64,000 nucleotides of DNA. Source: Planctomycetota bacterium (lineage in GTDB: Bacteria > Planctomycetota > Planctomycetia > Pirellulales > Pirellulaceae). Numbering within the stretch: position 1 is the first letter of the stretch; each line of letters begins with the position of its first letter. Positions 14,126 to 20,900 of this stretch are shown one piece after another. The stretch spans positions 62,001 to 126,000 of the forward strand of contig VGZC01000001.1 of NCBI GenBank assembly GCA_016872725.1. Direction: 5' to 3'. A program made the translations under genes and the position numbers. Under the pieces are notes generated by a model. That model saw only the letters and a program-made list of their open reading frames with translations. It made no database searches and was not told the origin of the DNA.

Positions 14126-14274
14126 CCGGAACAGAGAAGAGGCCAAATCGGTCACCGATCGAATGAAAAAAAAGGACGAAATGCCTCGATGGGTCCCGCC
14201 TTCCGACAGATCTCGTGCGATCGAGCGATCGGTCGATCACGTGAATCCCGGGAAGGGTGGATCGGGCACCCACG

Positions 14275-14302
14275 ATGATACCACGATCGATCACGGTGTC
14301 CA
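14275..14302 (-). promoter_or_regulatory. Candidate promoter of the attenuated leader
   Basis: On the minus strand TGGACA (14302-14297) and TATCAT (14280-14275) are 16 bases apart. Transcription would begin near 14268 and reach the terminator after about 180 bases. The leader contains GGCGGG (plus-strand 14195-14200), which could pair with CCCGCC in the terminator stem. Confidence 0.45.
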
Positions 14303-14546
14303 GCGTTTTCCCGAACGGCGAGCCGCTCGCGTTGCCCCGTCGCGCCTTTCCCTCTTTCGAGAACCGATCGGCATAGTTAGGCTTTACGGTTCGGCGCCCA
14401 TGCCGTTCCGAACCCGGAACGAACAACCAAAGACCCCGGAACCCAAAACGCGGAACCCAAAACGCTCGGTGCGGCCCGTTCGGAGTCGGGTCCAGGAACG
14501 GGAGCTCGCCTGGGTGGTTGACCGTACGACCGTCGAGTTCGCTGGC

Positions 14547-15377
14547 ATGAGTGCATCGCGGCTACCCCTGATTCGAGTGACTCGCCGCACGGCGGCCGCT
14601 GGTCGCGAAGCCCTGGCGAGGCACGGTATCGTGGCGAGCTTCGCGGCCCATACGCTTGTGGGCGCGATGGCCATCGTCCGCGGTTGGTTTGGCATCGGTG
14701 TACAGCCCGACCCGGTCCTGCCGTATCCGCCGCGCCACGACCGAGCTTCGATCGCGGTGGCCATGGCGCCCTCCGCGCGGGAAACCGAGTCGGCGCCGGT
14801 CCGGATCGAGTCGCCGCGATCGGCCATGGAATCGGCGACGATCGCGCCTCCGGAGGCGTCGGAGACCGGCTTGACGAGGTCGGCGACGGCTGAACGCTCG
14901 GCGCCGATCGTCGTGCAACCGTTGGATCGCCAGTCGGCGGTCGATCGAGTCTTGATGGAAGGGCGAACCGTCGCTCGATCGGAGGAACCGATCGAGCGCA
15001 TTCCGCGAAGGGCGGATCGGGTCGCGGAGGACGTCGCCGACGTCCCGGTCAATCCGTTTTCATCGGCGGGAGCCATGTCGCGGGCGAGCGCGGGTGTGGA
15101 AACGACCGTTCCACCCCGCGTTTTAGTGAATCCGGCGCCGAGTTATCCGCGTGAGGCGTTGGTGGCGGGAAGGACGGGGACGGTATTGCTGCGCGTCGAG
15201 ATCGCGGCGGACGGACATGTGATGCGGATCGCCGTCCACGAGTCCAGTGGCGATCCGACGCTCGACGCCGCCGCGCTGGACGCCGTTCGCCGATGGGCAT
15301 TCCTTCCGGCCCGTGATCCGGCGGCCTTGCCGCGTCCCGTTCTGGTTCCGATCGAATTCGTGATCCGCCGCCGATGA
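14547..15377 (+). CDS. TonB-like energy-transducing protein
   Basis: A 276-residue protein with the TonB layout. An N-terminal membrane anchor at residues 27-45 carries the SxxxH motif (SFAAH, residues 31-35) that TonB uses to interact with ExbB/ExbD. A Pro/Ser/Glu-rich periplasmic linker follows. A C-terminal TonB domain has the PSYPREAL entry motif, a GTVLLRVEIAADGHV strand and the terminal VPIEFVIRRR strand. It would couple the proton gradient to outer-membrane receptors. The ATG at 14547 is chosen because the anchor follows directly, though the Shine-Dalgarno is weak. No exbB, exbD or receptor gene is adjacent; the next gene is a ketosynthase homologue. Confidence 0.82.
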   Translation: MSASRLPLIRVTRRTAAAGREALARHGIVASFAAHTLVGAMAIVRGWFGIGVQPDPVLPYPPRHDRASIAVAMAPSARETESAPVRIESPRSAMESATIAPPEASETGLTRSATAERSAPIVVQPLDRQSAVDRVLMEGRTVARSEEPIERIPRRADRVAEDVADVPVNPFSSAGAMSRASAGVETTVPPRVLVNPAPSYPREALVAGRTGTVLLRVEIAADGHVMRIAVHESSGDPTLDAAALDAVRRWAFLPARDPAALPRPVLVPIEFVIRRR

Positions 15378-15435: not shown

Positions 15436-16719
15436 ATGGCCGATCAGTGTGAAGTGGTGATCACCGGCACGGGCGTCGTCAGTCCGCTCGGAATCGGGCA
15501 TCGCCCTTTCTGGCAGGCTCTGCTCGCCGGACGCAGCGGCGTGCGCGAGCTGACGTCGGTCGATCCGACGGGGTGGACCGTCCCGATCGGCGCGGCGATC
15601 CTCGATTTCCAGGCGAAGGAATTCGTGACGCCCCGGAAGAGCCTGAAGGTGATGTGTCGCGAGATCCAAACGGGATTCGCCGCCGCGCATCTCGCGATGT
15701 GCGACGCGCGGTTGGCACCGGGGGCGTACGATCCCGACCGGACGGGCGTCCTGTTCGGCGCGGATATGCTCTACTGCGAACTTCCCGACATGGGTGACGC
15801 ATTCGGCGCCGCCTGTTCCGACGGAACCGTGACGCTCGACCGATGGGGCCAAACGGGCATGCATCATCTCTATCCCCTCTGGCTCCTGATGTACCTTCCG
15901 AACATGATCGCCAGCCATCTGACCATCGCGCACGACGCGCGGGGGCCGAGCAACACGATCACGTCGGGAGACGCGTCGAGCCTGCTGGCGCTCATCGAGG
16001 CGTGCCGGGTGATCGAGCGGGGGCTTGCCGACGTGATGCTCGTCGGAGGCGCGGGGACCCGCCTGAACCCGAACCAGTTGCTTCGGCGCAACGGCCGGAA
16101 CGTCTCGCGGTCGATCGCCGATCCTCCATCGGCGTGCCGGCCCTTCGACGCTCAACGGGACGGCATGGTCAACGGGGAAGGCGCGGGCGCGCTGGTTCTC
16201 GAGTCACGCGGGCACGCCGAGTCACGCGGAGCTTCGCTTGTCGGCCGGGTACTCGGCGGAGGCCGCGCCTTCGAAGGCGCGCTGAGCTCCGGCGATTTCC
16301 CGCTCCGCGCTTCCCAAAGCGGAACGGGCATCCGTCGCTCGATCGCCGCCGCGCTCGCCGACGCGCGTCTGCGGCCCGATGCCATCGGCCATGTCAGCGC
16401 ATGCGGAGTCGGCACGATCGAGGACGACGCGCGCGAGGCCCGCGCGATCCGGGACGAACTGGGCGATGTGCCCGTGACCGCCTACAAAAGCTATTTCGGA
16501 AACCTCGGCGCGGGGAGCGGCGCCGTCGAACTCGCCGCCACACTCCTCGCCCTCCGCGACGGAATCGTCCCACCCAACCGGAATTTCCGACAGGCCGATC
16601 CCGCATGCCCGATCGCCGTCGTGAAGGGCGAACCGATCCGGACCGAGCGGTCCGCGGCGATGGTGCTCAGCCAGTCGGTTGTCGGTCAGTGTGCCGCGGT
16701 CATCGTCGGACTCCCCTGA
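15436..16719 (+). CDS. Ketosynthase-fold protein (FabF-like) with all three catalytic residues replaced
   Basis: A 427-residue protein that aligns end to end with FabF-type 3-oxoacyl-ACP synthases: VVITGTGVVSPLG at the start, GPSNTITSGDASS at the nucleophile elbow, FDAQRDGMVNGEGAGALVLE, and KSYFGNLGAGSGAVE near the end. The nucleophile Cys is Asp179, the first active-site His is Cys323 and the second is Asn356; Lys351 is kept. It therefore should not condense acyl chains. Related non-condensing folds are known, such as chain-length factors, which keep a Gln at the Cys position. The reading frame is intact. It stands alone after the TonB-like gene, with no ACP or other fatty-acid gene nearby. 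Its function is unknown. Confidence 0.85.
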   Translation: MADQCEVVITGTGVVSPLGIGHRPFWQALLAGRSGVRELTSVDPTGWTVPIGAAILDFQAKEFVTPRKSLKVMCREIQTGFAAAHLAMCDARLAPGAYDPDRTGVLFGADMLYCELPDMGDAFGAACSDGTVTLDRWGQTGMHHLYPLWLLMYLPNMIASHLTIAHDARGPSNTITSGDASSLLALIEACRVIERGLADVMLVGGAGTRLNPNQLLRRNGRNVSRSIADPPSACRPFDAQRDGMVNGEGAGALVLESRGHAESRGASLVGRVLGGGRAFEGALSSGDFPLRASQSGTGIRRSIAAALADARLRPDAIGHVSACGVGTIEDDAREARAIRDELGDVPVTAYKSYFGNLGAGSGAVELAATLLALRDGIVPPNRNFRQADPACPIAVVKGEPIRTERSAAMVLSQSVVGQCAAVIVGLP

Positions 16720-16796: not shown

Positions 16797-17858
16797 TCAG
16801 GCCGTCGCTCCGGCGAGCCGCGCGCGATGGTCGGCGATCAAACGCAGAAGGCCTTTTTGCGGATCGGCGAATTTCCTGAGCCCCTCGGCCATCAACGTCG
16901 CTTCCATTTCCGCGGGATCCACGAGTCGATCGATTTCCGAGAGCACCTCGTCGGGCGGAAGGTCGTCCACGCGCGGCGAGAAAGACAATCCGGACGCGAG
17001 CACCGCTTCGTTCGTTGCCGGCGGGTTCGTCTGAATGTCGGATCCCGCGAACGCCTCGACGTATTTCCACGCCGCGTCCTCGGCGTATTTCGTGCCCGTG
17101 CTCGCGAAGACGATTTCTTGTTCGAGGGGAACGCGGTGATCGTTCCAGAACGCGCGGTTGCGCCGCCAAATGCGCTTGGCGTTGACGATCCCGACCTGAC
17201 CCTGGGCCCGGTTCGACAGGTCGGGAACGGCGTTCCGCGTGTACACATCGACGCGCGACACGAAGATACTGTAGACGCTCTTGAATCGAGGCGGTGTTCC
17301 TCGCCGCGCGGCGCCGCGCCATACCGCGTCCCTCGCCGCCTCGTATTGGCGTTCGCTGAAGATCAAGGTGACGTTGAGCGGCACGCCGGCCGCGCAAAGG
17401 TCCTCGAGCGAATCCAGGCCCGCAGGTGTCGCGGGGACCTTGATCATCCGGTTGGAATGCCCCGACGCCCAGCGCGCGCCGGATTCGATGTACCGGGCCA
17501 CCCGATCGGCGTGCGGCAGGTTCCGCTCGGTGTCTTCGATCAACGGATCGAGTTCGAAGCTCACGTACCCGTCATTGCCGTCCGTTTGTTCCCAGACCGG
17601 AAGGAACACGGCCTGAGCCCGCGACACGAGCTCATCGGTCAGCGCCCACGCGATCGCCTCGTCGGATCGCCCCAGCTCGGCGAGCCGCGCGATGTCCGCG
17701 TCGAAACGCCCGGTCTTGATGAGATCGGCGATGATGATCGGATTGGACGTCGCGCCGGTCGCGCCCCATGCCCGATTCGCGGCGACGAGATCCGGATCGA
17801 TCGAATCGAGCCACAGTTTGGTTCCGCAGGCCATCAGGCTTTCGAGCGGATTGGACAT
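16797..17858 (-). CDS. tal: Transaldolase
   Basis: A 353-residue transaldolase-family protein. The Schiff-base lysine lies in [18 protein letters not shown]. The substrate-site block [15 protein letters not shown] is near the N-terminus. The C-terminal half has [14 protein letters not shown], which is the long transaldolase form rather than the short fructose-6-phosphate aldolase form. It transfers dihydroxyacetone units between sugar phosphates in the pentose phosphate pathway. GGAGG precedes the ATG by 7 bases. It starts 88 bases after the kinase-SUMF1 gene stop on the same strand and may be co-transcribed with it. Confidence 0.9.
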
Positions 17859-17946
17859 CGCGGGGCCTCCTTGAAATACGCCTGCTTCCCGAAGAAACGG
17901 CGGTCGTCGCGGAACGCCGTTCGGGTATGGCGACGCGGATTCCCGA

Positions 17947-20900
17947 TCACGGCAACGTCCGCGCGACGCGAAAACCGACGGTGGCGTCGCCTTGCTCCTC
18001 ACGCATCGCCGTCCGCGCCGCGGAATGGAACGACGCGGCAAGGTCCTTGAACGATCCTCCCCGCAACTCACGCTGCGCTCCGCGCCGCTCATCCGTTCCG
18101 TCCACCACGATACCCGTGTGCTCGGGAAGGGGAAGGTACCAATCCATGGTCCATTCGCACGCATTTCCCAGCATATCAAACATGCCGATCGGATTGGGCT
18201 TCAAGCCGCCGACCGGGCGCGGTTGTTGGCCCGAATTCTCCATGGTCCACGCGTGGCGCGCGTGGATCGGGTCGTTGTCGAGTCCGAGCGGTCGGAGCGT
18301 CGAGGTGCCCGCGCGGCAGGCGAATTCCCATTCCGCGGCGGTCGGCAGCCGATACCCCGGCCTGTCCAGGGCCTTCGGCGGAATCAGGAGCGGCGCGAAT
18401 GTCGCGTACAGATCGTCGATCGCATCGATCGTCGGAAAACACTGGTCCGTGTCGGGGATTCCGTCCCGATCGCCCAGCCAACGGCAATACGCGACCGCCT
18501 CGTACCACGTGATGTTGGTGACCGGCAACCGCGGGTCGTCGGCGAGGCCTCGATTGAGTCGTCGGTTCTTGAGTTCCGCGACATACTGTTCGAGTTTCCT
18601 CTTGGTGGTCGTATCGAACGCCGCCGCGAGCCGGTCCTCCAGATCTTGGAGCCGGGCCCTTTCATAGCGATCGTATTCGCCGATCGTCACCTCGCGCGTC
18701 GCGACGGCGAATCGCCGAGGTATCCGCCGCGAATGGGGCGGAACGGGTTCGGAGCCGGCGGGGCCCTCGGTTCCCGATCCCATCGGAAACGTCACGGGTC
18801 CGAGGACGACCCAGGTCGTCCCGAATCCGTCCGAAAACCACCGCCGTTTCGGATCCCGCGCCGCCGTCGGATCCGGAACACGGCCAAGGCGATCCTCCAT
18901 GCCCCATTGCCGAACGAGCCACCCAACCGACTCGTGGACGAAGGGGTCCTCGTGCCGCGCGTACAGATCGACGAGCGAAGGGAGCAATTCCTTCCGCTCG
19001 GAGGCGAACAGCCGGCGCTGGTCGTATTGGCCGAGCGCGAGCAGGATGCCGCCGAGCGTAGGCGCGTGCTCGGGTTCGACGAGCGAAGGGATGCGTTGTT
19101 TGAGGAGCTGGGGATCGACGCCGACGCGGCCGAGCCGTTCGATCATCAACGCGCGGGCCGTCGGAAAATCGAGCGATCCAAGGCGGTCGATCGCCGCGTC
19201 GGGCATGCCCAAGGCGAGCATTCCGATTTCCGCGTTCACGACGCGCGACAAGGCGTCGAAGTCCCCGATTTCCGGCTCGCGGCACGGCGGCCGCGCGGCC
19301 GCGCGGCTCGACGCGAGTCCGCCGAGCACGGCCTCTTGGGATCGGACGGCGTGCGGGAGCAGCGCGGCGAGCTGATCGGGACGCGCCCGCCGCATCCAAT
19401 CGACGATCCGCTCCGGATCGTCATCGAACATCGCGCCGAGCACGGCGGCGGCGGAACGCGCCGACGATGCGTCGGACGAATCGAATTCGCGTTCGATCGA
19501 GGGCCGCAACCAACCGCGCACCGGAGCGACCGCCTCGATCCACGATCGCGCCGCGCGCGGATCCTCGCCGATCAACGGACCTCCGACGTCCGCCGCGACC
19601 CGCCGCCATCCCGATTCGTCGGCGTCGAACGCCGCCAGGGCGCACGCGGCCCGGAACCGCCGCGCCTTGATCTCCGCCGGATCCCCGGCCACCTTCCAGA
19701 ACCGGTCGACAAGCGGACGCGCGTGGGGTTCCAGAATCATCCGGCTGACGAGGAACTCGTCCGCGGGCGCGTCGAGCAAGTCGTCGCCGACCCGACGCGC
19801 CCACTCCGACGATGCGTCCGGGCGGGAGGCGTCGCTGAGCGCGAGGAGCGCGAGATGCAGTCGCCGCCGGTGGCTGGGTTCGAGCCGCCCGCGCAGTTGG
19901 TCCTCCAGGACCGGACGGACCTCCGCCGCGTACGGGCTCAGACCTTCCAAGAGCAACGGAAGCGATTCGGGGTTCGCCGTGCGCAGCGTCGTCACGTGCG
20001 CCATCGCCCGAGCGCGCTGTTCGCGCACGACCCGCAGGGCGAGGAGCGATGAGGCCGTGATGCCGACAAGCAGCGATGTGAAGACGGCGAGCAGCAGTCC
20101 GGCGGCGGCCTTGTTCCGCTTCGCCCAGCGCCAGGTCCGCGCCGCGATCCCGATCGGCCGCGACAGGATCGGCTCGCCGCGCTGGTACCGATCGAGTTCC
20201 TCGGCGAGTTCGAGCGCGCTGCCGAATCGTTCGAGCGGGTTGCGGACGAGGCACCTCGCGCAGATCGTCTCGAGGTCCTTCGGAACCGACGCGTCCAGCT
20301 TGCGGATCGACGTCGGCTCGCGCTCGCAGATGCCGACAAGGATCTCGGTGATCGTTCCTTGGTACGGCAGGACTCCGATCAGCATCTCTTGGAGCATGAC
20401 GCCGAGACTCCAGACGTCGGATCCCGCCGTCGCCTCGTTGCTCCGCCCCGCCGCCTGTTCGGGACTCATGTACGCCGGAGTACCCATGATCGAACCTTCC
20501 ATGGTCCGGTGCGCCCCGTCCTCGTCGCGCCGCGCGCAGCCGAAGTCCGTAATGTGCGGCTCGCCCTTGTCGTCGACGAGCACATTGTCGGGCTTCATGT
20601 CGCGATGCACGATTCCCCGCGTGTGCGCGTAGTGGAGACCCCGCGCCAACTTCGCGCAGAACGCAACCGCTTCATCGCGGGACAACTTGCTCCGCGACCG
20701 AAGGACCGACTTGAGCGTCGAACCCTCGACAAACTGGTATGCGATAAAAAGGACGTTGTCGATCTGGCCGCATTCATAGACGGGAACGATATGGGGATGA
20801 CGGAGCTGGGCGGCGGCCCGAGCCTCCTGAAGGAATCGCGTCCGGTCCGAGTCACGGATCAGAACGCCCGCCTTCGCCACCTTGAGCGCGATCCACCGAT

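Follow-up and report, generated by a model that had tools for sequence, protein, structure and literature searches.

A Cys-less ketosynthase-fold protein of Planctomycetota as a candidate non-catalytic KSbeta subunit of a heterodimeric beta-ketoacyl-ACP synthase

Introduction

Chain length factors (CLFs) are known from secondary-metabolite pathways. The described systems closest to the protein analysed here are the ketosynthase-CLF (KS-CLF) pairs of actinorhodin (1tqy), ishigamide (6kxd/6kxf) and aryl polyenes (ApeO-ApeC). Among enzymes with other catalytic sets, KSQ-type malonyl decarboxylases carry Gln at the Cys position and keep both His residues, FabH uses Cys-His-Asn, and Cys-to-Gln mutants decarboxylate.

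Within the Planctomycetota, FabB/FabF paralogues of Rhodopirellula baltica have been reported with Asp163 (RB3714) or with Glu163-His298-Lys328-Asn333 (RB4527), and those of Kuenenia carry other substitutions (Rattray et al. 2009, PMC2649909). In its accessible text, the same report shows the substitutions together with a tree, proposes a different substrate and function for these paralogues, and discusses the Kuenenia proteins as possible entry points for ladderane building blocks. A 2023 catalogue, in the portion available, counts Planctomycetes among the phyla with KS-CLF matches (PMC10132072). No description of a planctomycete beta-ketoacyl synthase heterodimer with an acyl carrier protein (ACP) appeared in the open-licence PMC literature, among the matches listed.

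Here we analyse P0001, a gene in a 64,000-nt stretch of planctomycete DNA (the window). We propose, with a probability of roughly 60%, that its product acts as a KSbeta. In this role it would be the non-catalytic member of a beta-ketoacyl-ACP synthase heterodimer and would act as chain length factors do in type II polyketide synthases.

Results

P0001 occupies 15436..16719 on the + strand and encodes 427 residues with no internal stop. Both ketoacyl-synthase Pfam domains match the product (4e-38 and 3e-18), which spans the NCBIfam FabF models end to end but scores under the family cut-off (TIGR03150, 249 versus 493.75 bits). Phmmer alignments to solved FabFs and a MAFFT alignment with E. coli K-12 FabF place the same residues at the catalytic positions: D179 (codon 15970..15972, +) at the nucleophile C163, C323 (16402..16404, +) at the first active-site His, H303 (His1), K351 (16486..16488, +) at the retained active-site Lys, K335, and N356 (16501..16503, +) at the second His, H340 (His2). 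The set reads D-C-K-N, in place of the Cys-His-His triad and Lys of FabF (C-H-K-H in the same order). A sequence-only reading of the window had already described the end-to-end likeness to FabF-type synthases, the three replacements with only the Lys kept, and an intact frame in a gene that does not look decayed, and each of these points is borne out here. That reading had also held that the motifs around the changes are well preserved, which does not apply to all of them: at the gating loop, GFGG of FabF has become VVGQ. A realignment that restores an intact catalytic Cys elsewhere, named by the same reading as one result that would overturn it, is ruled out; D179 stays at the Cys position in every alignment made.

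With three of the four catalytic positions altered and the His1-to-Cys change found in P0001 only, one might suspect a decaying pseudogene. We regard this as extremely improbable. The frame is open, and relatives of 42-58% identity are present in many genomes. Compared with five relatives of 53-59% identity, P0001 differs at 0.31-0.37, 0.26-0.31 and 0.54-0.66 of first, second and third codon positions, respectively; the differences fall mainly in third positions, and the gene is therefore under purifying selection. An AlphaFold2 monomer model built from a 36-row alignment has a mean pLDDT of 90. FabFs are its top matches in structure searches, with the C163Q and C164Q mutants among the best, and these matches indicate the fold only. 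A CLF chain is absent among the structure matches listed, where one chain per entry is shown, so this absence excludes nothing.

We then placed P0001 among its relatives. From fetched loci and reference records, 142 distinct KS sequences were collected, 98 of which form a set without C-H-K-H (three Streptomyces rows excluded, and one sequence from a contig labelled as another phylum, L007, included). At the Cys position these 98 proteins carry Glu (65), Asp (29), Asn (2), Ser (1) or Gln (1). Asp or Glu is present in 94/98, and an acid is therefore a constant feature of the subfamily. His1 is His in 75/98, and Cys occurs there in the window copy alone; the active-site Lys is kept in 87/98; His2 is Asn in 63/98 and His in 20/98; and the gating-loop Phe survives in only 8/98. 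The non-condensing ketosynthase fold suggested earlier is supported, and it is conserved as a subfamily. As to whether D179, C323 and N356 are subfamily traits, the acid is general and the Asn common, but C323 is peculiar to this copy.

A match to P0001 at E<=1e-20, a level that ordinary FabFs also pass, occurs in 40/40 genomes of the relatives search, its own included. Under the strict cut-off of E<=1e-58, which also admits four C-H-K-H relatives, 50/244 genomes drawn across the phylum have one. The window's own genome encodes two Cys-less members, P0001 (D-C-K-N, clade A) and a protein at C4:101444 (E-H-K-N, clade B), together with four C-H-K-H synthases. Judged by their published residues, the Rhodopirellula and Kuenenia paralogues of Rattray et al. 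very probably belong to the same subfamily.

The residue pattern invites a further explanation, that P0001 is a KSQ-like malonyl-ACP decarboxylase making an acetyl-ACP primer, with an acid for Cys and a FabH-like His-Asn pair. The Lys is indeed retained, as are His1 and the Asn at His2 in most members, and a basic stretch that would dock ACP (below) is nearly invariant. However, His1 is gone in 23/98 members, P0001 with its C323 included, the combination D/E-H-K-N is found in just 2/15 betas from the phylum's other classes, and so few members keep the gating-loop Phe. FabH scores over its family cut-off in 37/40 genomes, and priming therefore has another enzyme. We consider this activity improbable for P0001, and the related idea that FabH is missing and has been replaced by P0001 is ruled out by the same 37/40 genomes.

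Two ORFs flank P0001, as neighbours only. Upstream lies an ORF with a TonB_C domain (14163..15377, +; PF03544, 7e-18; true start uncertain) and downstream, on the opposite strand, a transaldolase-family ORF (16797..18179, -; PF00923, 3e-53). The TonB-like gene is adjacent, as the sequence-only reading had noted, but it does not recur: in single-sequence phmmer searches with the C-terminal part of the protein, no ORF of 48 clade-A-type loci, some of them short, gave a match at E<=0.01. The neighbour looks like a local accident, and TonB as a functional partner of P0001 finds no support. Recurrent neighbours of clade A genes are a fatty-acid desaturase (10/34 loci), a GNAT protein (10/34) and an SDR-type epimerase (8/34), each family being named from one member. 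These are suggestive of lipid work; none of the three families is found beside P0001 itself. The desaturase genes (PF00487, named from L081) are mostly oriented divergently from the clade A gene, and occur at L080, L081, L083, L092, L094, L096-L098, L100 and L101. On the L007 contig, which is labelled Candidatus Nealsonbacteria and is probably misbinned, a clade A gene that shares 53% identity with P0001 has members of these recurrent GNAT and epimerase families next to it.

We examined gene order at 20 loci from other classes of the phylum (L143-L162). In 18/20, a C-H-K-H ketosynthase, KSalpha, directly follows the P0001 relative (beta) on the same strand. At L153 the contig ends within the second KS, and at L145 a second KS was sought beside a C-H-K-H beta and none was found; in three of the pairs (L143, L144 and L146) the beta too reads C-H-K-H. 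Gaps were compared over 18 loci, L145 and L159 being excluded: 15 of the gene pairs overlap or are separated by at most 22 bp, the size of the overlap varying with the start codons chosen, and the remaining gaps are 373, 486 and 555 bp. A FabZ-like dehydratase, an ACP and a second dehydratase all lie upstream of the pair in 10/20 loci, one dehydratase only is present at L156, and in 9/20 neither kind of gene from these families turned up next to the pair. At two loci an ORF for a PF05635 protein (23S rRNA intervening-sequence protein) is inserted between the beta and alpha genes (L148:6766-7146 and L162:8076-8495). The earlier judgement that a protein like P0001 has no obvious known role was therefore overstated; its relatives precede a catalytic ketosynthase in these 18/20 loci, which points to a role as KSbeta or chain length factor.

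A comparable operon exists in the window's own genome. At C1:209014-212069, on the same contig as P0001 and 133 kb from it, the order is dehydratase-ACP-dehydratase-KSalpha, and the beta gene is absent. The earlier statement that ACP and other fatty-acid genes are lacking thus holds for the immediate neighbourhood of P0001 but not for the contig. The KSalpha, G000:C1:210786-212066, is the last gene of the operon and reads C-H-K-H. Orthologues at >=63% identity occur in 38/40 genomes; G022 and G035, each in more than 400 contigs, have no KSalpha match at this threshold, yet beta relatives are present in them. The full order of dehydratase, ACP, dehydratase and KSalpha recurs in 18/20 further loci (the exceptions being L222, and L230, which is without the first dehydratase). 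L231 and L233 carry a gene of the SDR family (named from L231) inside the operon; in L230 such a gene lies 5.9 kb upstream of KSalpha. None of the operon neighbours examined pointed to a product.

The second FabZ-like dehydratase of this operon is itself altered. We compared L073:7093-7731 (= G000:C1:210092-210730) with the corresponding genes in L216-L235, and Tyr replaces the catalytic His in 14/15 loci from the window's family, against 0/5 from other families of the order. By its sequence, this dehydratase would make a second active/inactive pair in the KSalpha operon.

Trees were built with FastTree from all 142 KS sequences and with IQ-TREE from 90 sequences after removal of the four catalytic columns. 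The Cys-less proteins and four C-H-K-H proteins (L137, L138, L139 and L141, all of one family of another class) form one clade (FastTree 0.998, IQ-TREE 100). In IQ-TREE the four branch first and the Cys-less beta clade has a support of 100. The corresponding inner clade has only 0.339 in FastTree because of L160, without which it rises to 1.0. The catalytic neighbours of the beta genes form a separate KSalpha clade (IQ-TREE 97), with the own-genome synthase L003 inside it. A joint clade of KSalpha and beta has moderate support (IQ-TREE 88), and FabF forms a clade of its own. The Streptomyces CLFs L109 and L110 fall just outside KSalpha plus beta in FastTree (0.977) and with Streptomyces KS in IQ-TREE (61). 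The simplest history is a single loss of the Cys within the lineage of this phylum, at a time when an active pair of alpha and beta genes already existed. In the family of L137, L138, L139 and L141 (larger stretches L143-L146), the gene at the beta position keeps C-H-K-H, and the second dehydratase is without the His motif in 4/4.

We next asked where conservation lies in the beta proteins. In the AcpP-FabF complex, as given in the available part of its description, region 1 of the interface comprises K65, R68 and K69, and region 3 includes I129-F132; most ACP contacts are attributed to the monomer that carries no crosslinked ACP, in text that does not state this residue by residue (PMC7138838). 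Residues 67-75 of P0001 (RKSLKVMCR; 15634..15660, +) are basic and align with region 1. The positions of K65 and R68 are Lys in 97/98 (K68) and 95/98 (K71) of the beta proteins. Among 30 KSalpha orthologues, position 68 is Lys or Arg in 3 and Asp or Glu in 19, position 71 is Lys or Arg in 16/30, and R75 is present in 30/30. Mean net charge over columns 64-76 is +3.59 in beta (98 proteins), +1.64 in FabF (11), +0.03 in the KSalpha orthologues (30) and -0.45 in alpha-clade proteins (20), with the own KSalpha counted in both of the latter sets.

All 12-residue segments were also ranked by entropy, group by group. The best-conserved segment begins at residue 146 or 147 in 4/4 beta groups (consensus PLWMLKYLPNM). 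In P0001 residues 146-157 (15871..15906, +) read YPLWLLMYLPNM, one of the most conserved such segments of the beta proteins, and its start aligns with part of FabF region 3 (S130-F132); residues 148-154 have a pLDDT below 50 in the monomer model. The segment at 146 ranks 340/404 in KSalpha, whose top segments are those at the catalytic Cys, position 387 and the gating loop. In FabF it ranks 123/384, and the top segments are those at the gating loop, at His1 and at position 233. Conservation in beta has moved to two segments aligned with ACP-docking regions of FabF, the first of which KSalpha has largely lost. Beta shows no conservation of FabF docking region 2 (R127, K128 and R206) or of K69, and this speaks against the view that beta simply took over the way FabF docks ACP.

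Near-invariant docking lysines would also suit a homodimeric acyl-ACP-binding sensor or regulator that has no ketosynthase partner, all the more as P0001 stands alone in the window and catalytic residues drift in clade A. Against such a sensor, the arrangement of the genes in other classes fits a paired subunit, and KSalpha is largely without the first docking stretch that beta retains. We find this explanation rather implausible.

Clade B raises the matter of which synthase is the partner. In the own genome its gene lies in the order fabD-fabG-fabF-(unknown)-B-nusA-infB-rbfA, and FabF is encoded at G000:C4:97738-98964. The gene between fabF and clade B (L072:8981-10147) is conserved and without a Pfam match, and its family is found in 10/20 loci of the clade B list. 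P0001, the clade B protein or both might accordingly be non-catalytic partners of the housekeeping FabF and not of the operon KSalpha: clade B sits in the fabD-fabG-fabF operon, and a second KS adjoins the gene in 6/20 loci of a list in which four rows are clade A or cut short. FabF, however, retains a basic docking stretch of its own, with Lys or Arg at both docking positions in 11/11 proteins (8 from this phylum and 3 proteobacterial), and looks able to function by itself. In other classes the adjacent synthase belongs moreover to the KSalpha clade, and L182, a clade B member reading D-H-K-N, is followed after 661 bp by a KS of the alpha clade. We therefore judge a FabF partnership unlikely and retain KSalpha as the favoured partner of P0001.

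Discussion

Under the KSbeta model, KSalpha with its intact Cys-His-Lys-His set would perform the condensation, and P0001, whose own active site is dead, would contribute to the ACP-docking surface that serves the active site of its partner. P0001 may further line the acyl pocket on one part of its wall, and in this way influence which substrate is used and how long the chain becomes. As a guess, the acid that replaces the Cys may lock or fill the dead pocket. The likely partner in the own genome is the KSalpha at G000:C1:210786-212066. Beta would have left its operon in the window's lineage, and the two genes are now 133 kb apart, so their pairing rests on homology. P0001 is best classed as KSbeta-like in its probable mode of action, short of membership in the classical CLF family.

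A wider scenario can be put forward tentatively, and as a whole we would sooner bet against it. The phylum would have evolved its own chain-length-factor-type subunit in a lipid-synthesis operon, independently of polyketide systems; the beta gene would then have left and duplicated, and one KSalpha would combine with partners A and B to route different acyl chains. Condensing and dehydrating steps would both run on active/inactive pairs.

If the KSbeta assignment is correct, a chain-length-factor-like subunit exists in several classes of one phylum and, in one class, has been detached from its partner and doubled. The family of L137-L139 and L141, which still has the catalytic Cys, would allow a step-by-step test of how an active ketosynthase may have turned into a non-catalytic partner. 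The assignment likewise offers a testable role for the Cys-less FabF paralogues reported from Rhodopirellula and Kuenenia in 2009. RB4527 reads E-H-K-N, as clade B does, in a comparison made through its published residues; the KSalpha partner, the single Cys loss and the docking-surface pattern go beyond the accessible text of that report (PMC2649909).

With FabF/KAS II, P0001 shares the fold, the full-length alignment, the active-site Lys and the basic docking stretch at the K65 and R68 positions. It differs in the missing Cys, the altered His pair, the changed gating loop and a score below the NCBIfam cut-off. From KSQ decarboxylases it differs in having Asp, Cys and Asn at the positions of their Gln and two His. 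The hot-dog malonyl-ACP decarboxylase, considered as a parallel, has another fold according to the available part of its description and no bearing on P0001 (PMC8666670).

The KS-CLF systems of actinorhodin, ishigamide and aryl polyenes resemble the planctomycete one most closely. In both, a FabF-fold subunit lacks the catalytic Cys; the other-class betas stand beside a C-H-K-H ketosynthase, and half of these loci also have the ACP and dehydratase genes. P0001 is full length, unlike the half-size ApeC described in the accessible text of PMC8358021. The planctomycete betas have an acid where the two Streptomyces CLFs examined (Q-D-K-R) have Gln, a residue seen in 1/98, and their genes run beta-alpha, whereas in Streptomyces the alpha gene comes first and the CLF follows. 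The planctomycete Cys loss, finally, lies inside a clade of the phylum's own, and in the window's class the beta gene is detached and present as two paralogues.
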